A DNA stretch of 64,000 bases from Halapricum desulfuricans (GTDB taxonomy: Archaea; Halobacteriota; Halobacteria; Halobacteriales; Haloarculaceae): NCBI RefSeq assembly GCF_017094465.1, contig NZ_CP064791.1, forward strand, positions 1,054,001-1,118,000, written 5' to 3'. Positions 7,199-18,958 of the stretch are shown here, piece by piece. A program made the translations under genes and the position numbers. The notes beneath the pieces were generated by a model, which was not told the DNA's origin, did not search any database, and saw nothing but the letters and a program-made list of their open reading frames with translations. Numbering within the stretch: the first letter of the stretch is position 1; each line of letters opens with the position of its first letter.

Positions 7199-8479
7199 AT
7201 GGCAGAGCGCGGTATCTCGCGGCGTTCGTTCGCGAAGGCGGCTGTGGCGATCGGTGGTGCAAGCGCGCTGGCGGCGTGTCTGGATCGCGGTGACACCGAG
7301 CCGATCCCCTCGGGTCCGGACGACCTATCGACGCTCCCACGTCGCCAGCACGCCTGGAACGAGTCGCTACCGACCGACGAACACGGCAACGTCCGGACGC
7401 CCTATCACCACCTGCTGCTGTATTACGACTACGGCAGCGCTGAGACCGCTGCCGGCGGAGCGACGCCGACCGCCGACGAACGCGAAACCGTCGAGAATAC
7501 CCTTCGGAGTCTGGAGCGAGCGTACGAGCACTCCAACGACGGGCTGTTGTTCACGGTCGGCTACTCCCGGCGGTACTTCGAGCGTTACGACGCGGCGCTG
7601 CCCGAGAGCGTCGATCTGCCGCGACCGGACGCGCTCGCGCCCTTCGAGGACCCCGAACGCGACGAGTTCGATGTCGTAGTCCACCTCGCGAGCGACCGTG
7701 CTGACGCCCTCCTGGAAGCCGAAGAGGCGCTTCGGGGCAACCGCGAGACGGCGAACGGCGAGGAGATGGCCGCCGCGCTTGAGGACGTGCTGCGGTTTCG
7801 CGAGCGCCGGACGGGCTTCATCGGCGAAGGAATGCCGGCCGAACGTGACGACGTCGACGGCGTGCCGGACGGGGCAGTGCCCGAGGACGCACCGATGTAT
7901 ATGGGCTTCAAGTCCGGGTTCCGTGCCAACCAGGCCACCGAAGAGCGGGTGACGATCGGGTCGGGTCCCTTCGAGGGCGGGACCACCCAGCACGTCTCGA
8001 AGATCCGGCTCCACCTCGAGCAGTGGTACGAGCAGGACAGCCGCTCTCAGCGCGTGAGCAAGATGTTCTGTCCGGCCCACGCCCAGGAAGACCGGGTCGA
8101 GGGCGCGGGACAGAACCTCGGCGACGCCAGCGGCGCCAGCGCCTGTCCGGCCCACACGACAGACGCCCGCGAGAACGGCGTCGTCGGACATGCCCAGAAG
8201 AACACCGCTGCCCGCGAGGACGGGGCCCCGATTATGTTACGCCGGGACTTCGATTCGACAGATGACGAGGCAGCCGGATTGCACTTTCTGGCACTACAGC
8301 GCGAGATCGGGGACTTCGTCGAGACCCGCGAGGCGATGAACGGCACCGACGCCAACGAGGCCAGCGGCGCGGTCGGAGTGCGCCATAACAACGGGATCCT
8401 CCAGTATATGACCGTCCTGCGTCGGGGAAACTACCTGTTGCCGCCCAGAGACAAGCGCGCGCTACCCCGGCCGAGTTGA
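7199..8479 (+). CDS. Tat-exported Dyp-type peroxidase homologue (lipoprotein) with altered distal motif
   Basis: The N-terminus has a twin-arginine signal (SRRSFAK at residues 7-13) and a lipobox ending at Cys27 (LAAC), so the protein is probably a Tat-exported lipoprotein on the outer face of the membrane. The C-terminal half resembles dye-decolourising peroxidases. It has a HVSKIRLHLEQW segment, a VVGHAQKN segment supplying the likely proximal heme His331, and then APIMLRRDF followed by GLHFLALQREIGDF. The distal GxxDG motif of the family is instead GFKSG at residues 236-240, so the catalytic Asp is Ser. A CTTTTCTA TATA-like box about 25 nt before the ATG suggests a leaderless transcript. 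A P19-like metal-binding lipoprotein gene follows 91 bp downstream. Together they resemble the iron-uptake pairing of EfeB-type peroxidases with periplasmic iron proteins, which is an inference from context. Confidence 0.8.
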   Translation: MAERGISRRSFAKAAVAIGGASALAACLDRGDTEPIPSGPDDLSTLPRRQHAWNESLPTDEHGNVRTPYHHLLLYYDYGSAETAAGGATPTADERETVENTLRSLERAYEHSNDGLLFTVGYSRRYFERYDAALPESVDLPRPDALAPFEDPERDEFDVVVHLASDRADALLEAEEALRGNRETANGEEMAAALEDVLRFRERRTGFIGEGMPAERDDVDGVPDGAVPEDAPMYMGFKSGFRANQATEERVTIGSGPFEGGTTQHVSKIRLHLEQWYEQDSRSQRVSKMFCPAHAQEDRVEGAGQNLGDASGASACPAHTTDARENGVVGHAQKNTAAREDGAPIMLRRDFDSTDDEAAGLHFLALQREIGDFVETREAMNGTDANEASGAVGVRHNNGILQYMTVLRRGNYLLPPRDKRALPRPS

Positions 8480-8570
8480 TCCGTTGCTCTCGTGGTCCGT
8501 GGCCGGGCTGTGTCCCACAGAGATGGCCGCGACCGTGTCGCTATTGTGCGTCCGGCCCGGATTTTGGGTG

Positions 8571-9593
8571 ATGAATCGACGGACTTTCCTGCGGGTGAGC
8601 GCTGTCGGTGCCGCCGGCGGGCTGGCCGGCTGTGGCGAGTTGTTCGCCCGGCAGTCGACCGCTCGAATCCCACCGGTGCTCGATGATCGGCCTGACGGCG
8701 TCTATCGGCCGACACACATCGAGGGAATGAAAATGATCGGGACGCAGACGGTCGGTGACCGCACCGTCGGGCTGTTCTACTCGTTTCCCCATCGGTTCTG
8801 GACCGTCAGCGGGGAGACCAACTTGGCCGAAATACAGGACGCCCAGACCGTCCACCTGATGGCCTCGATATGGGACCGAGAGACGGAGACGGTCGTCCCC
8901 GTGTTGCGCCAGCCCCGGTTTGCAGTGTCCCAAGACGGCGATTCGATCGACGAGAAGCGCGCCTGGCCGATGCTCAGCCAGAATATGGGCTTTCACTTCG
9001 GCGAGAACATCGACCTCGACGGTGACGGCACCTACACCGTCGAGGTCGAGGTCCCGCCGATCGACATCGAGACGGTCGGCGCATTCGACGGACGCTTCGA
9101 GTCTGCACACACGGCGGAATTCACCTTCGAGTACGCCGAGAGCGAGCGTGAGGATATCCCATTCGAGGAGTTCCCCGACACGGCCGGCGAGCGCGCGGCC
9201 GTCGACCCAATGGAGACGGCTATGCCGCTCTCGTATGCACCTGCCATCGAGGAACTGCCCGGCTCGCCCGTGACGGTCGGTCGTGTCGGCGACGCCGAGT
9301 TCGTCGCGACCGTCGCGGACGGAGCACTGATCGTCTCACCGCGGACGCCGTACAACCGTTTCGCTATCCCCGGGTTCCCGCTGTCGGCGACCGTCGAGAG
9401 TGCCGGATTCGACGACGTCCTCGCGGGCGCGATCGGCCCGTCGCTCGGCGCTCACTACCGCGCTGGGCTCGACAACACGCCCGAAAGCGGCGACACCGTG
9501 ACGGTCACCGTCGACGGCCCGAACTCGCTGTCCCGCCACGAGGGCTACGAAACGGCGTTTCTCGAAGGCGGGTCGATTTCGACGACGCTGTAA
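8571..9593 (+). CDS. Tat lipoprotein of the P19/Tp34-like iron (metal) transport family
   Basis: A 340-residue exported protein. The start at 8571 gives a clean Tat lipoprotein signal: NRRTFLR at residues 2-8 and lipobox LAGC with Cys21. The upstream part of the frame has no signal character. The segment MGFHFGENIDLDGDGTYTV closely follows the P19/Tp34 signature (Met-x-x-His-(Y/F)-Gly-(D/E)-Asn followed by a Gly-rich turn), whose Met and His bind Cu/Fe. Earlier HIEGMKMIG and FSFPHRFW provide further Met/His residues. The C-terminal 120 residues are a second beta-rich region without clear assignment. Its position behind the Dyp-type peroxidase gene suggests joint work in metal acquisition or peroxide handling at the cell surface. 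Confidence 0.75.
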   Translation: MNRRTFLRVSAVGAAGGLAGCGELFARQSTARIPPVLDDRPDGVYRPTHIEGMKMIGTQTVGDRTVGLFYSFPHRFWTVSGETNLAEIQDAQTVHLMASIWDRETETVVPVLRQPRFAVSQDGDSIDEKRAWPMLSQNMGFHFGENIDLDGDGTYTVEVEVPPIDIETVGAFDGRFESAHTAEFTFEYAESEREDIPFEEFPDTAGERAAVDPMETAMPLSYAPAIEELPGSPVTVGRVGDAEFVATVADGALIVSPRTPYNRFAIPGFPLSATVESAGFDDVLAGAIGPSLGAHYRAGLDNTPESGDTVTVTVDGPNSLSRHEGYETAFLEGGSISTTL

Positions 9594-9656
9594 CGTCGAT
9601 TGAGACGGTCGGTTGTACCGATTTCCTGGCGGCCGTATGACCTGTGCAATCGAGTC

Positions 9657-9736
9657 ATACTGGTGGCTAGACCATTTCGAACTGATCCGGTACGCCGTCG
9701 TGCCGGATCCCTTTACGAACGTATAGCCACCAGTGT
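9657..9736. repeat. Nested inverted repeats (80-bp hairpin-forming sequence)
   Basis: The outer arms 9659-9669 (ACTGGTGGCTA) and 9724-9734 (TAGCCACCAGT) are an exact 11-bp inverted repeat, extendable by two more pairs with one wobble. Inside them GATCCGG (9684-9690) and CCGGATC (9703-9709) form a second stem. The unit lies in the 243-bp gap before the small membrane gene at 9837. It could be a cruciform-forming regulatory site, a terminator region for the P19-like gene, or a palindromic miniature element. Confidence 0.6.
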
Positions 9737-9836
9737 CAGAATGAAAACTATTTTGTATCTGGGGGGTGATACCAAACACCACGAGCCGCTGCTCGCGCGT
9801 CGGGGTGGCGCGCAGTTGTGGCTGTGGGGGCCGCCT

Positions 9837-10205
9837 ATGGCAACGCAAGAGTCGACAGCAACTAGCTGGGTGGATAGACAGGCAACCACTGGTGAGCACA
9901 GTCAAATTGTCCGCATGCTCGCGGATATCGAAAGCTACCTCTGGGGAGTCCTTGTCGTTGCTCTCCTGTCCGATGTCGTCCTTACAGGGTACGGGCTACA
10001 GCATGGATTGAGCGAGGGAAATCCAGCAATGCGTCTCGCGGTCGACGCGGCCGGTATCGTCGCGCTGCTTGGCGCGAAGCTCGCCGCCCTCGGATTCGGT
10101 GTTGCGGTCCGACGGGATCTTGACGATCGGGGCGCCGTTGTCCCGCTTGGACTAGCGATACCGTGGGTCGGTGCTGCTACGGTCAACGCTGTGTTGATAC
10201 TCTGA
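9837..10205 (+). CDS. Small multi-helix membrane protein, DUF5658-like
   Basis: A 122-residue protein with three or four hydrophobic helices. The motif LSDVVLTGYGLQHGLSEGNPAM is typical of small DUF5658-type membrane proteins (Asp in helix 1, then a GLxEGNP turn). The start at 9837 (MATQEST) is preferred. The frame remains open to 9600 and an ATG at 9741 exists, but that extension is not protein-like. A weak TATA-like AACTATTTT lies near 9747-9755. The function is unknown. Confidence 0.65.
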   Translation: MATQESTATSWVDRQATTGEHSQIVRMLADIESYLWGVLVVALLSDVVLTGYGLQHGLSEGNPAMRLAVDAAGIVALLGAKLAALGFGVAVRRDLDDRGAVVPLGLAIPWVGAATVNAVLIL

Positions 10206-10367
10206 TATCGAAACACTCAGTTCGCGCCGATTTGCCGGACGGACTGTCGTACCGATTTGTCGCGCTAGTTGCAGTCGGCCAGTTAATTCCGAGCAGACTT
10301 ACACGGCTGTATGACGTGCCACGATCAAGTCGAGAACCTGAAAAAGCGCGGCCCCGTGTCCCGACGT

Positions 10368-11877: not shown

Positions 11878-13152
11878 CTATTCGAGATCGAGACTCAGGT
11901 GTTTGACCGGCGGGCCGTCGGCTTCTAGATCGTATCGCGGGGCCGCGAGTGCAACGAGCAGGTCCGTCAGGAACGACTCCTCGTCGAGGACGGCCGTCAC
12001 GTCCGAGCGACCGGGAAGTTCCGTCGACTGGAACAGCTCCCGAATCTCCGGGATCGAGGCGACACCTTTCTCGTCGAGTTCGGCGACCGTGTCCTGGACC
12101 GCGAGCCAGGTTTGAATCGTCGTGACGAGGTACTCCCGGGCGCGCCCCTCCGGGTTCGGCACGTCTACGATCGTCGAGAGGTACTTCGTCGCGCTACTCT
12201 CGGCAATATCGACCTCGCCGTCGAGCCAGTCGAGCACCTCGTCGCGAGTCACGTCGGTGTCCAACTCCTCGACCGCGCGTTCGCAGATGTCGGCCTCCTC
12301 GGCGGCGACCTCGTGGAAGACGTTCCCGACGACGACGGCGTCCGCCCCGGCGTCGAGGACGGCATGCGCGTTCTCGCGGTTGTCCAGTCCGCCGCCGTAC
12401 CACAGTCGCGACCAGCGCCGCCCCTCGTCGACGGCTTCCAGAATCGACTCGGCTTCCTCGCCGCCGAACGTTCCGGAGTATTCGAGATAGATGAGTTCAC
12501 TACCGAGGTGGCGCTCGGCCGCCATCGCGCGCTGTTTGGCCGTCCCCGGATCGAGCAGATCATTTTCGGTGACGTTGCTCTCGCGGGCGGCCGCACTGTC
12601 GGGGTTCATGATGATGTACGCCTCGAAGACCGTCTCCTGCAAGAGCCACGACGTCGCAAACGCCGCGAGCCGATCCTCGATGGCCGCCCCCGGCGATATC
12701 GGGAGCTTCTTGGCAATCATCTCCGGGGCGAGTTCCGACTCGATGTATTCGACACCCGACCCGAGTGTACCGATCAACGCTTCGACGTCGCCGTTGAGGA
12801 CCTCCGGGATGGCCAGAAACTCCGCCCGAGAGTGCGTGTCGGTCGTCACCTGCTTTGGGCCGCTTGGCTCCTGGAACGCCGGGACCGGCCGGTCGGCGAC
12901 GAGTTCGAGCGTCTCCTCGGTGTTCTGATCGGTCACGTCTCGGGAGCCGCCGACCTCCAGGGCGCTCGTGTGCTGGAGATACAGTGGGTACAGCAGCGGC
13001 AGTTCCTTTTCGTCCTCGGGATCGATCTTGGTGATATGTGTCCAGTCGGCCGGGACCGGATTCGTGTCCAGATCCAGCAGCGATCGACCGGCGATGCCTC
13101 CGATCGTCGAGTACCGCTCGACCGTGCGTGCGATGTCTTCGATCCGTACCAT
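11878..13152 (-). CDS. PcrB/GGGP synthase-like TIM-barrel protein with C-terminal extension
   Basis: The first 300 or so residues are a TIM barrel of the geranylgeranylglyceryl phosphate synthase/PcrB family, which joins glycerol-1-phosphate to a prenyl diphosphate in archaeal lipid synthesis. Family landmarks are DWTHITKIDPE, a Gly-rich EVGGS, MNPDS, LIYLEYSGTFGG, RLWYGGGLDN and the phosphate loop ADAVVVGNVFHE. About 120 further residues (from DVTRDEVLDW) form a helical extension not seen in ordinary 230-250-residue GGGP synthases. The segment between strands 2 and 5 is also longer than usual. It may be a second GGGP-synthase type or a paralogue with another acceptor. The gene lies 64 bp downstream of the Asp-rich gene on the same strand, which suggests they work together. 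Confidence 0.75.
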   Translation of the reverse strand: MVRIEDIARTVERYSTIGGIAGRSLLDLDTNPVPADWTHITKIDPEDEKELPLLYPLYLQHTSALEVGGSRDVTDQNTEETLELVADRPVPAFQEPSGPKQVTTDTHSRAEFLAIPEVLNGDVEALIGTLGSGVEYIESELAPEMIAKKLPISPGAAIEDRLAAFATSWLLQETVFEAYIIMNPDSAAARESNVTENDLLDPGTAKQRAMAAERHLGSELIYLEYSGTFGGEEAESILEAVDEGRRWSRLWYGGGLDNRENAHAVLDAGADAVVVGNVFHEVAAEEADICERAVEELDTDVTRDEVLDWLDGEVDIAESSATKYLSTIVDVPNPEGRAREYLVTTIQTWLAVQDTVAELDEKGVASIPEIRELFQSTELPGRSDVTAVLDEESFLTDLLVALAAPRYDLEADGPPVKHLSLDLE

Positions 13153-13216
13153 TACCCGTTCCGTGGGCGCGTCAGTATAAAAGCCTGGCAGAAATCGTTC
13201 GAAACCGATCGGGCTG

Positions 13217-14425
13217 TCACAGCTGCCCAGTACCAGGCAGCACGTGTGGATTCCCGGAGTGGTAGATGTACTCCGTGGCGATACCCGTCAGCGGTGACTC
13301 GGTTTCGGCCGCGTGGGATCGGGCAATATCGAGATATCGCTCGGTGATCTCCTGAACGCGTCGGGCGGCCTCGCGGTCGCTGTCGGCCAGCAGGTATTCG
13401 GCCGTAACCGGTGTTAGCTGCCCGTCTTCCACGTCCGCGCCGTAGTCGTCGACGTCGTCGAGCCAGATCTGTGCGGCGATGATCGCCAGCACGATCGAGC
13501 GTTTGAACGCCGTCTCGACCGGCAGGCCCGCCGCGCGGTACATCTCGATCATCGCGTCGTAGATCACGCCGACCCTGGCGTACTGCGTCCAGAGATACGG
13601 CAAATCGTGCTGTTCGTCGCCGAACACGTCCGTCTCGGCGTCGAACGGCGCGTCCCGATACTCGGACTCGATCTCCGTGACGGCGCCAGCCGCACCGTCG
13701 CGGGCGCGTTCGTACAGGTCCCGGAAGTGCGGATCCCGATCCTGATGGGCTTCCGAGAGGTCGACGGCCCACTCGTAGACGTCCGTCAGTTCGTCCGGCA
13801 ACTCTTCGAGGTGGTCTTCGAGGTCGGCCTGGAGCGTCTCCTGGGCGATCCGTGCGACGCGAGCGCGCTCGTCCTCGTCGACGCTGATCGACACCTCGAA
13901 ATCCTCGTATTCGCCGTCGTTGACGGCGTCGCGCATGTCGCCGTCGAGCAGTGCCTCGATGACGATCCGCGTCAGGTACTCCGCCCGGTCGACCATCGCC
14001 TCTGGGCTGGCGGGAGCCTCGCCCACGTCGGATGGATCAGCGGGTGTGCGATAGCTGTCGTCGCCGACGGCGTTTGCGACCCGGCTGGCCCAGGTGCTCC
14101 CAGCGACCGGATCGGTCCCGTCGGCGCGACGCTGAGCACGCCGGTAGAGGTACCCGAGCGTCAACTCGGCTGGCAACAGTAATTTGGTGTCGTATTCGAA
14201 CGTGACGGACTCGACGTCGAACTCCCTGGCGAGTTCGGACTCGACGAGCGTGAACACGTCCTCGACCATCGCCTCGGTCCGGTCGTCGACCGTCGATTTC
14301 AGCCGTAGACTGCCCAGATCGAACGCGCCGGTGTGCCCGTAGTAGCCGAAGACGGCCCGCACGGCCGTCGGCAGCGCCGATCGACCGGCGAGCCAGCCGG
14401 CGGTGGCACGGAGTGGTCCTGTCAT
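13217..14425 (-). CDS. Alpha-helical protein with DDVDD motif, possibly isoprenoid-synthase-like
   Basis: A 402-residue mostly helical acidic protein. Near residue 330 it has QIWLDDVDDYGADVEDGQLTP, which resembles the second Asp-rich metal-binding motif of class I (all-alpha) isoprenoid synthases (Q-x-x-DD-x-x-D-x-x-x-D-x-x-x-G). Before it is a helix KRSIVLAIIAAQ. A first Asp-rich motif is not obvious. The family is not certain, and the whole-protein similarity could be a coincidence of an acidic proteome. Position is supportive: it lies 64 bp upstream of the PcrB/GGGP-synthase-like gene, which would use a prenyl diphosphate. The gene diverges from the DUF2238-like membrane protein gene. Confidence 0.6.
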   Translation of the reverse strand: MTGPLRATAGWLAGRSALPTAVRAVFGYYGHTGAFDLGSLRLKSTVDDRTEAMVEDVFTLVESELAREFDVESVTFEYDTKLLLPAELTLGYLYRRAQRRADGTDPVAGSTWASRVANAVGDDSYRTPADPSDVGEAPASPEAMVDRAEYLTRIVIEALLDGDMRDAVNDGEYEDFEVSISVDEDERARVARIAQETLQADLEDHLEELPDELTDVYEWAVDLSEAHQDRDPHFRDLYERARDGAAGAVTEIESEYRDAPFDAETDVFGDEQHDLPYLWTQYARVGVIYDAMIEMYRAAGLPVETAFKRSIVLAIIAAQIWLDDVDDYGADVEDGQLTPVTAEYLLADSDREAARRVQEITERYLDIARSHAAETESPLTGIATEYIYHSGNPHVLPGTGQL

Positions 14426-17587: not shown

Positions 17588-18958
17588 ATGCGTACCGAAC
17601 AGTTCGACGTGATCGTCGTCGGGGGTGGGACCGGCGGAACGTTCGCCGCCACGACCGCCGCTCGTGAGGGGCTTGACGTCGTGCTTCTCGAACGGAAATC
17701 CGAGTCCGAGGCCGGACACATCGCCTGTGGCGACGCGATCAAGGGTGCGAACACGTTCCCCGACGTGATCGACCGCGAACATCTCCGCGCGGAGTCGTTC
17801 ACCAACGACGGCATCGAGCGTGCACTGTTCGAACTCCCCGACGGAGAACGGATCGAGTATTCCTTTGGCGGTCAGTCCGGCGCGATCGTCGACCGCAAGC
17901 GCTACGGCGAGGTCCTGCTCGAAGAGACCGACCGCGCCGGCGTAACGATCCAGTATGACACCGTCGTCCAGGACGTGATCCAGTCCGACGGCGTGGTCGA
18001 GGGCGTCGTCGCGACGCGAAACGGGATACAAACGCGGTACGAGGCTCCGGTGACCATCGACGCGGCCGGTGCGCTGTCGATCCTGCAGGACAGGGCCGAC
18101 TTCGGGGCGGCAACCTTCGATACGAACGTCGATTACACGCATTTCTGTTCGGCCTACCGTGAGGTCCTTTCGGTGGACGAGCCGGTCGACTACGACGACG
18201 CGCTGGTGTTCAAGCCGACCGAGGAACTGGGCTATCTGTGGTATTTCCCCCGGACGGAGAGGGAGATCAACGTCGGTCTCGGCTTTCAGATGACCGAGGA
18301 GCCGATGCAGTTGGTCGAGACGCTCAGAGGGGATCTCGGTGCGAAACCCGAGTTCGCGAATGCGACCGTCGAGGACAAACTCGGGGCGGCACTTCCGACC
18401 CGGCGACCTTACGATTCGGCTGTCGCGCCGGGGTATCTGGCCGTCGGTGACGCTGCTGCGCACGTCAACCCGACGACGGGCGGTGGCATCCCGGGCGCGG
18501 CGAAGGCCGGCCACTGGGCCGGGGAGGTCGCCGCCGACGCCGTCGTCGAGGAGTCGGTCGACGAAGCGACCCTCTGGAGGTACAACCACCGGGTGCAGAC
18601 GGATTTCGGCAAGCGCTTCGCCGCGATGGACCTGTACAACATCTTCGGGACGGCCCACTCGATCGACGAACTGACTGATGTCATCGCGTCGCTGCCGGCC
18701 CAGCAACTCATCGACGTACTCGGGAAAGAGGGGACGGCTTCGATGGGCCTGCTCGGAAAGGCCAGGCTGGCGCTCTCGACGCTCGGTCACTGGCGGACGC
18801 TGTACGACGCCTATCGGGTCAACGCGATGGCCGACGAACTCAAGTCCATCTACGAGCGGTATCCCGAGACGCCGGCGAACTTCCCGGACTGGCGTCGCGA
18901 TCGCGACGCGTTCATGGATCGGTTCTACGAGCACGTCGGGGCCGAGCCGAAATACTAG
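17588..18958 (+). CDS. Geranylgeranyl reductase family flavoprotein
   Basis: A 456-residue FAD enzyme of the geranylgeranyl reductase family, which saturates isoprenoid chains of archaeal lipids or related prenyl compounds. It starts EQFDVIVVGGGTGGTFAATTAA, the dinucleotide-binding fold with FAD ribose contact at LLERKSE. The family segment GHIACGDAIKG follows, and LAVGDAAAHVNPTTGGGIPGAAKAG (residues about 282-306) closes the FAD site. A C-terminal helical substrate domain completes the fold. Length and motifs are normal. It stands alone in its transcript direction after the channel gene. Lipid-related genes lie on both sides within a few kilobases. Confidence 0.9.
   Translation: MRTEQFDVIVVGGGTGGTFAATTAAREGLDVVLLERKSESEAGHIACGDAIKGANTFPDVIDREHLRAESFTNDGIERALFELPDGERIEYSFGGQSGAIVDRKRYGEVLLEETDRAGVTIQYDTVVQDVIQSDGVVEGVVATRNGIQTRYEAPVTIDAAGALSILQDRADFGAATFDTNVDYTHFCSAYREVLSVDEPVDYDDALVFKPTEELGYLWYFPRTEREINVGLGFQMTEEPMQLVETLRGDLGAKPEFANATVEDKLGAALPTRRPYDSAVAPGYLAVGDAAAHVNPTTGGGIPGAAKAGHWAGEVAADAVVEESVDEATLWRYNHRVQTDFGKRFAAMDLYNIFGTAHSIDELTDVIASLPAQQLIDVLGKEGTASMGLLGKARLALSTLGHWRTLYDAYRVNAMADELKSIYERYPETPANFPDWRRDRDAFMDRFYEHVGAEPKY

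Follow-up and report, generated by a model that had tools for sequence, protein, structure and literature searches.

A candidate soluble digeranylgeranylglyceryl phosphate synthase with a predicted isoprenoid-synthase fold in Halapricum desulfuricans and other Halobacteria

The 64,000-nucleotide stretch of Halapricum desulfuricans analysed here (contig NZ_CP064791.1, positions 1,054,001 to 1,118,000; hereafter the window) carries two adjacent genes on the same strand, 64 bases apart. One encodes a 424-aa protein of the PcrB/geranylgeranylglyceryl phosphate (GGGP) synthase family, termed here the long GGGP synthase, and the other a 402-aa protein that we discuss as a candidate digeranylgeranylglyceryl phosphate (DGGGP) synthase (Table 1). 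Both open reading frames (ORFs) exist as described in a first-pass annotation of the window, and neither is a chance frame, because both are conserved as proteins across haloarchaeal genera. That annotation had proposed a prenyl-diphosphate maker beside a prenyl transferase, serving a non-standard ether lipid or prenylated compound.

Table 1. Features of the two-gene locus and of a nearby reductase gene (positions within the window; residue numbers refer to the protein named)
Feature	Position	Strand	Basis
402-aa protein of predicted isoprenoid-synthase fold, candidate DGGGP synthase for the second ether bond	13217..14425	-	Predicted fold; near mutual exclusion with UbiA DGGGP synthase in 391 genomes
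YDTKLLLP motif, residues 78-85 of the 402-aa protein, in place of GKxxRP of prenyl synthases (by eye)	14171..14194	-	Y78, T80, L82 and P85 invariant in 63/63
DGDMRDAVND motif, residues 161-170, standing where prenyl synthases have their first Asp motif	13916..13945	-	D161, G162, D163, R165, D166, A167, N169 and D170 invariant in 63/63; end of model helix 141-169
HQDRD motif, residues 227-231, at the GQxxD position	13733..13747	-	H227, Q228 and D231 invariant in 63/63
QIWLDDVDDYGAD motif, residues 319-331, second Asp motif	13433..13471	-	Q319, L322, D323, D324, D326, D327 and D331 invariant in 63/63; end of model helix 305-326
Long GGGP synthase (PcrB/GGGP synthase family, 424 aa; first ether bond)	11878..13152	-	PF01884, AF2 model, structure match
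GGGP synthase TIM-barrel domain, residues about 32-332 of the 424-aa protein	12157..13059	-	Range aligned to solved GGGP synthase/PcrB structures
C-terminal helical extension, about residues 333-424 of the 424-aa protein	11881..12156	-	Model helices 334-362, 367-376, 380-389 and 394-407
N-terminal helix 4-25 of the 424-aa protein	13078..13143	-	Model; absent from short GGGP synthases sampled (alignment with short paralogues and their sequences)
Geranylgeranyl reductase family gene	17588..18958	+	TIGR02032, 209.8 bits (cut-off 158.8); two genes from the 402-aa gene; in several relatives a gene of this kind directly adjoins the 402-aa homologue and points away from it

No Pfam or NCBIfam family matched the 402-aa protein above cut-off, and comparison with PDB sequences returned a single match with an E-value of 2. 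Its AlphaFold model (predicted local distance difference test score, pLDDT, 92.2; predicted template modelling score, pTM, 0.91) is, in prediction, of the isoprenoid-synthase fold, whose enzymes ionise allylic diphosphates with Mg2+ held between two Asp-rich helices. Judged by their titles, the best 50 of 289 Foldseek rows are all prenyl diphosphate or terpene synthases, some few of them recognisable from their names only. VIA-align gave Z scores of 16.6-19.6 among the 50 matches listed, headed by MoeN5 structures (Z 19.6), whose gap to ordinary synthases is below 1 and amounts to a tie. The isoprenoid-synthase character suspected in the first-pass annotation is borne out to the extent of this predicted fold.

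A pattern-based scan of an 84,980-species genome collection recovered 66 loci with homologues of the 402-aa protein, all under haloarchaeal titles, the closest named relatives at the locus being Halapricum hydrolyticum and Halapricum sp. CBA1109. The window protein was aligned with 62 of these 66 named loci (alignment A3, 63 sequences), leaving out two with frame breaks (L099 and L119), a partial one (L125) and one with a gap of N (L126); an apparent fusion of both genes in L126 was rejected, as it reflects this assembly gap. The Asp-rich motif that had drawn attention to the protein proved conserved. Among 17 close relatives QIWLDDVDD is invariant at Q319, W321, L322, D323, D324, D326 and D327 (17/17), and all of these except W321 remain invariant in the wider set; further invariant positions there include Q281, Y282, R284 and Q336.

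In a comparison by eye with haloarchaeal synthases (alignment A5 holds 21 of 32 prenyl synthases), the sequence and location of the motifs suggest that TKxxLP corresponds to GKxxRP, DGDMRD to the first DDxxD, HQxxD to GQxxD, RVGVIY to KTxxLY and DDxDD to the second DDxxD. Trans-isoprenyl diphosphate synthases are recognised by two DDxxD motifs with RRG after the first; the 402-aa family has an invariant second motif (DDxDD), DGDMRD at the first, and, in this by-eye comparison, neither the RRG nor the arginine of GKxxRP. In true prenyl synthases these two elements presumably bind isopentenyl diphosphate (IPP), and their loss fits a protein with a non-IPP acceptor.

DGGGP synthase, a UbiA-family enzyme (NF009521), forms the second ether bond of archaeal lipids, a reaction central to building the archaeal membrane. 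Across 391 Halobacteria genomes at least 90% complete, 89 carry only a 402-aa homologue, 295 only an NF009521 DGGGP synthase, three both and four neither. All 298 DGGGP synthase matches lie above the curated NF009521 cut-off, with none at E 1e-25 below it, so that 93 genomes have no match, 89 of which carry the homologue. The window's own family repeats the pattern: among 109 genomes, for which every candidate of the genomes listed was scored in the DGGGP synthase search, 62 have only the homologue, 44 only DGGGP synthase, two both (G074 and G079) and one neither (G115). Counted by genus (84), 16 have the homologue only, 64 DGGGP synthase only and none neither, while four contain both genes within the genus. 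Swaps also occur inside genera, with G033 set against four other genomes in g11, G370 against the rest of g24, and G120 and G125 against five others in g13.

Taken with the predicted fold, the motif conservation and the gene linkage described below, this reciprocal presence and absence makes it probable, in our view, that the 402-aa protein acts as a DGGGP synthase not homologous to the UbiA one, namely a soluble enzyme of isoprenoid-synthase fold. It appears to stand in for the UbiA enzyme in about a quarter of the Halobacteria genomes examined. It is hardly credible to us that the distribution instead stems from common descent, or from a linked gene that escaped notice and is the real replacement: the genomes are related and candidate genes only were compared, but the swaps fall inside three genera and in separate families. 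Among the recurrent neighbours annotated, which cover a subset of the neighbour clusters, those with a lipid role are GGGP synthase, geranylgeranyl reductases and a prenyl synthase, the last in three genomes.

A census of UbiA genes in 14 genomes gave a concordant picture. A UbiA protein scoring 158-169 bits is present in all three genomes without a 402-aa homologue and in none of the 11 with one. Two of these three proteins are DGGGP synthases by NF009521 (379.6 and 353.8 bits; cut-off 296), and the third genome has a 360.5-bit match to one of them. The UbiA genes scanned in homologue-carrying genomes are MenA, NF009516 prenyltransferases and weak or unassigned ones; in G010 the only three matches are a CtaB-size protein, MenA and an NF009516 prenyltransferase. 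As a control, 14 named genomes were searched with NF009521; it matched in five, namely Haloferax volcanii, Synechococcus and three further archaea, but exceeded its cut-off in three of them, so the cut-off is not reached everywhere. A CarS-like gene occurs in 109 of 109 family genomes; CarS acts in the step after DGGGP synthase, on the two-chained lipid.

The census also bears on the idea that the DGGGP synthase step passed to a different UbiA enzyme (MenA or the NF009516 prenyltransferase), with the 402-aa protein as its accessory. UbiA enzymes with other jobs are indeed at hand in 11/11 censused homologue-positive genomes, and a similar take-over is proposed as one option for Thaumarchaeota in a passage of PMC6431249. 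However, UbiA matches in the score ranges of MenA and NF009516, which family searches confirmed in some genomes only, are also present in the three DGGGP synthase-positive census genomes, and the 402-aa protein has invariant Asp residues of catalytic type, which makes such a take-over decidedly improbable.

Published lipid data exist for one species that carries the candidate DGGGP synthase. Haloarcula argentinensis DSM 12282 (G009) carries a 402-aa homologue and has no DGGGP synthase match, and the part of PMC10704169 dealing with core lipids includes it among seven strains with mainly C20:C20 archaeol. More broadly, the diether phospholipids phosphatidic acid (PA), phosphatidylglycerol (PG) and phosphatidylglycerol phosphate methyl ester (PGP-Me) are listed for all known Halobacteria taxa in the portion of PMC10999741 that sets out proposed class standards. 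Given archaeol and no DGGGP synthase match, the second ether bond in Haloarcula argentinensis is probably made by something other than the UbiA enzyme. A non-standard lipid is consequently not needed, since the 402-aa gene stands where DGGGP synthase is missing and ordinary archaeol is published for one such species.

These data also speak to whether the 402-aa protein could resemble MoeN5 in forming a C-C bond on a prenyl chain linked to glycerol, yielding an extended or branched chain. MoeN5 heads the VIA matches listed, and MoeO5, a PcrB relative, matches the long GGGP synthase with Z 18.6; against this, the lead of MoeN5 over ordinary synthases is a tie, C25 archaeol is below 0.3% in strains outside Natrialbales, including Haloarcula argentinensis (same part of PMC10704169), and the second ether bond would be left unexplained. 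We regard this activity as very doubtful.

A closer competitor, related to the proposal of the first-pass annotation, would have the 402-aa protein supply the long GGGP synthase, either as a prenyl diphosphate synthase itself or as the regulatory subunit of such an enzyme. The fold matches include homodimeric and heterodimeric prenyl synthases, and in three Halorhabdus loci (L224, L225 and L231, in genomes G006, G025 and G108) a true prenyl diphosphate synthase gene lies directly downstream of the 402-aa homologue, the frames overlapping in two and standing 66 bases apart in one, with the long GGGP synthase about 2.8 kb beyond it. This explanation nevertheless leaves the missing DGGGP synthase of the same genomes unexplained; the residues taken to bind IPP appear absent, the Halapricum genome already holds three PF00348 synthases, and Haloarcula keeps the 402-aa homologue without a long GGGP synthase. 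We therefore think it unlikely. Of the pairing originally proposed, the two genes still look like a lipid pair, whereas a DGGGP synthase is likelier than an enzyme making prenyl diphosphates for an unusual lipid.

As a DGGGP synthase, the 402-aa protein would work like the UbiA enzyme on the fold of prenyl synthases. It would bind geranylgeranyl diphosphate (GGPP) through Mg2+ held between two facing Asp-rich helices, ionise it and attach its geranylgeranyl group at the sn-2 hydroxyl of GGGP; the product would be DGGGP, the unsaturated archaeol phosphate. The GGGP would come from the adjacent long GGGP synthase or, in Haloarcula, from the ordinary short one, and the product would then be activated by CarS and saturated by a geranylgeranyl reductase, often encoded nearby. 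Such chemistry has precedent, because MoeN5, of the same fold, uses a lipid acceptor. MoeO5 is the pathway partner of MoeN5, and moenomycin biosynthesis likewise combines an isoprenoid-synthase-fold enzyme with a PcrB-fold enzyme. In the passages concerned, the MoeN5 acceptor is given as a lipid, not IPP (PMC7839719), and the MoeO5 substrate for prenylation as 3-phosphoglycerate (PMC9385802). The moenomycin system differs in belonging to an antibiotic pathway and in the C-C bond that MoeN5 forms on the prenyl chain, and the fold closeness of MoeN5, tied with that of ordinary synthases, proves no kinship.

With UbiA DGGGP synthases such as that of M. jannaschii, the 402-aa protein would share the reaction (GGGP plus GGPP) and the possession of Asp-rich motifs, and a section of the review PMC9385802 notes that structural elements of the UbiA enzyme resemble soluble prenyl synthases. 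According to the same section, however, the UbiA enzyme is a membrane protein with nine transmembrane helices, whereas in seven relatives of the 402-aa protein (not the window protein itself) the highest 19-residue Kyte-Doolittle mean is 1.08-1.57, none reaching 1.6 in this crude test, and the fold matches are soluble enzymes. Neither PF01040 nor NF009521 matched the 402-aa protein at E-values up to 1, and across genomes the two types are nearly mutually exclusive. With trans-isoprenyl diphosphate synthases (PF00348) it shares the overall predicted fold and a DDxxD-like motif on the second Asp helix, and differs in the altered first motif, the missing RRG and GKxxR arginine (by eye) and the lack of a detectable sequence relation. 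As it lacks defining features of each group, we assign it neither to UbiA DGGGP synthases nor to PF00348.

Several points weigh against a DGGGP synthase. At the level of sequence, the 402-aa protein shows no relation to prenyl synthases: the Pfam search returned no PF00348 match, and the profile-profile comparison with haloarchaeal prenyl synthases (hidden Markov models on both sides), a check proposed in the first-pass annotation, was negative in local, global and greedy modes (hhalign probability 0.4%), so that the fold assignment depends on prediction. Within that prediction no Foldseek match has an E-value below 0.001 (best 1.7e-3, prob 1.00). A literal first DDxxD is absent, and K81, the lysine of TKxxLP, is invariant in the closer 17 relatives only, falling below 90% in the 63. 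The DGGGP-forming reaction is one that we infer from distribution, and that comparison covered candidate genes. Fisher p-values (7e-27 for the family, 6e-79 for the class) ignore relatedness and are only descriptive because related genomes are not independent; the within-genus swaps are more telling.

Exceptions to the pattern count against it as well. Both enzymes occur in G074, G079 and G317, which are possible intermediates or cases of re-acquisition, and neither gene was found in four of the 391 genomes (G274, G285, G378 and one more), through assembly gaps, search misses or a third solution. The class searches scored the best few candidates per genome (four for the 402-aa homologue, six for DGGGP synthase), so that a few absences in the class set may be misses. 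As a separate observation, the DGGGP synthases of G074 and G079 are 58% identical to the query, below other high-scoring members of the family.

The 424-aa neighbour is a GGGP synthase by family and fold. It matches PF01884 (PcrB) with 93.2 bits (cut-off 23.9) over residues 36-283 and barely passes NCBIfam NF003199 (169.8 against 169 bits). Its AlphaFold model (AF2; pLDDT 91.6) superposes on the A. fulgidus GGGP synthase 2f6u with Z 24.9 and a root-mean-square deviation of 1.8 over 226 residues, and on MoeO5 structures with Z 18.4-18.6. It belongs with GGGP synthases/PcrB by its family profile as well as by its TIM-barrel fold, and the catalytic Tyr/Glu motifs are kept, EAYIIMNPDS and LIYLEYSGTFG aligning to the Y124, Y165 and E167 motifs of A. 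fulgidus. The extra C-terminal part reported in the first-pass annotation is real, and the 120 residues assigned to it lie between two estimates: the Pfam match stops at 283, while solved folds align to 29-332 and leave about 92 residues.

Within its 2.88-Mb genome the long GGGP synthase is the sole PcrB match above cut-off, the count of GGGP synthases that had been called for; a second match of 22 bits, under the cut-off, was not counted. In the family survey (109 genomes of 90% completeness or more, with the scoring of 16 candidates in each), 29 genomes carry the long form, 21 of them without another match at E 1e-6 and eight with a short form as well; the other 80 have short forms only and no genome lacks a GGGP synthase. 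An earlier search that scored all candidates likewise showed 14 genomes with the long form only. In the genomes where no other form was found, the long protein is therefore probably a working GGGP synthase.

According to a passage of one review, haloarchaeal GGGP synthases of group Ia have IaH1 and IaH2 paralogues. The long protein shares their catalytic Tyr/Glu motifs but has extra helices at both ends, and in an unrooted tree it separates from the sampled short paralogues. A by-eye alignment to Leu-type paralogues had placed Gly/Ala at the chain-length limiter (W99 in A. fulgidus), suggesting a wider pocket and chains of C25 or longer. We dropped this idea because the MAFFT column reads Y in 22, H in four, S in four and A in one of 31 sequences, that is, Tyr/His in 26/31 (alignment A4, the window and 30 of 39 long GGGP synthase matches; five partial sequences and four without a simple motif were left out). 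A second kind of short GGGP synthase (L054, L055, L056 and L161), which some genomes carry in addition to the canonical one, may correspond to the IaH2 type of the literature.

The two genes of the locus travel together in many relatives. A long GGGP synthase ORF lies near the 402-aa homologue in 39 of 66 loci, on the same strand in 18 and the opposite strand in 21, and the protein trees of the two families agree in most shared groups, L080, L102 and L111 differing. In Salinigranum marinum the pair sits in divergent orientation on a 437-kb plasmid (NZ_CP100462.1, positions 7494-10227; L269), where the annotation names a heptaprenylglyceryl phosphate synthase and a hypothetical protein and shows no reductase within 9 kb. 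We lean, by a slight balance of probability, towards a portable cassette for both ether bonds, in which GGGP would pass directly from a two-domain GGGP synthase to an unrelated DGGGP synthase that is soluble; the cassette, seen once on a plasmid, would have entered several haloarchaeal lineages and repeatedly displaced the UbiA DGGGP synthase and, in six genera, the ordinary GGGP synthase too. The hand-over of GGGP between the two enzymes is again a step that we infer.

If the 402-aa protein is confirmed as a DGGGP synthase, a reaction that serves to mark the lipid divide will have been reinvented on another fold, absence of the UbiA gene can no longer be read as absence of the diether pathway, and the gene will offer a soluble alternative to the membrane enzyme for building archaeal lipids in other hosts. 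We did not find this gene reported in open-licence literature on DGGGP synthase (digeranylgeranylglyceryl phosphate synthase) and Haloarcula, including Haloarcula marismortui.

Two kinds of geranylgeranyl reductase gene recur in the flanks of the 402-aa homologues, in 19 and 13 of the 66 loci. The first kind includes two members above the cut-off of NCBI's haloarchaeal digeranylgeranylglycerophospholipid reductase, and adjoins the 402-aa homologue in Haloarcula, the genus without a long GGGP synthase. Elsewhere in the Halapricum genome, one prenyl synthase (L129, C1:708571-709287) passes the NCBI equivalog for geranylfarnesyl diphosphate synthase (628.7 against 560 bits); a passage of PMC8305020 questions one such C25 (geranylfarnesyl) assignment in Natronomonas. 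In L074 (7883-8596) and Haloarcula relatives, an NAD-kinase-like gene (best 61.3 bits, under cut-off) stands next to the geranylgeranyl reductase beside the 402-aa homologue.

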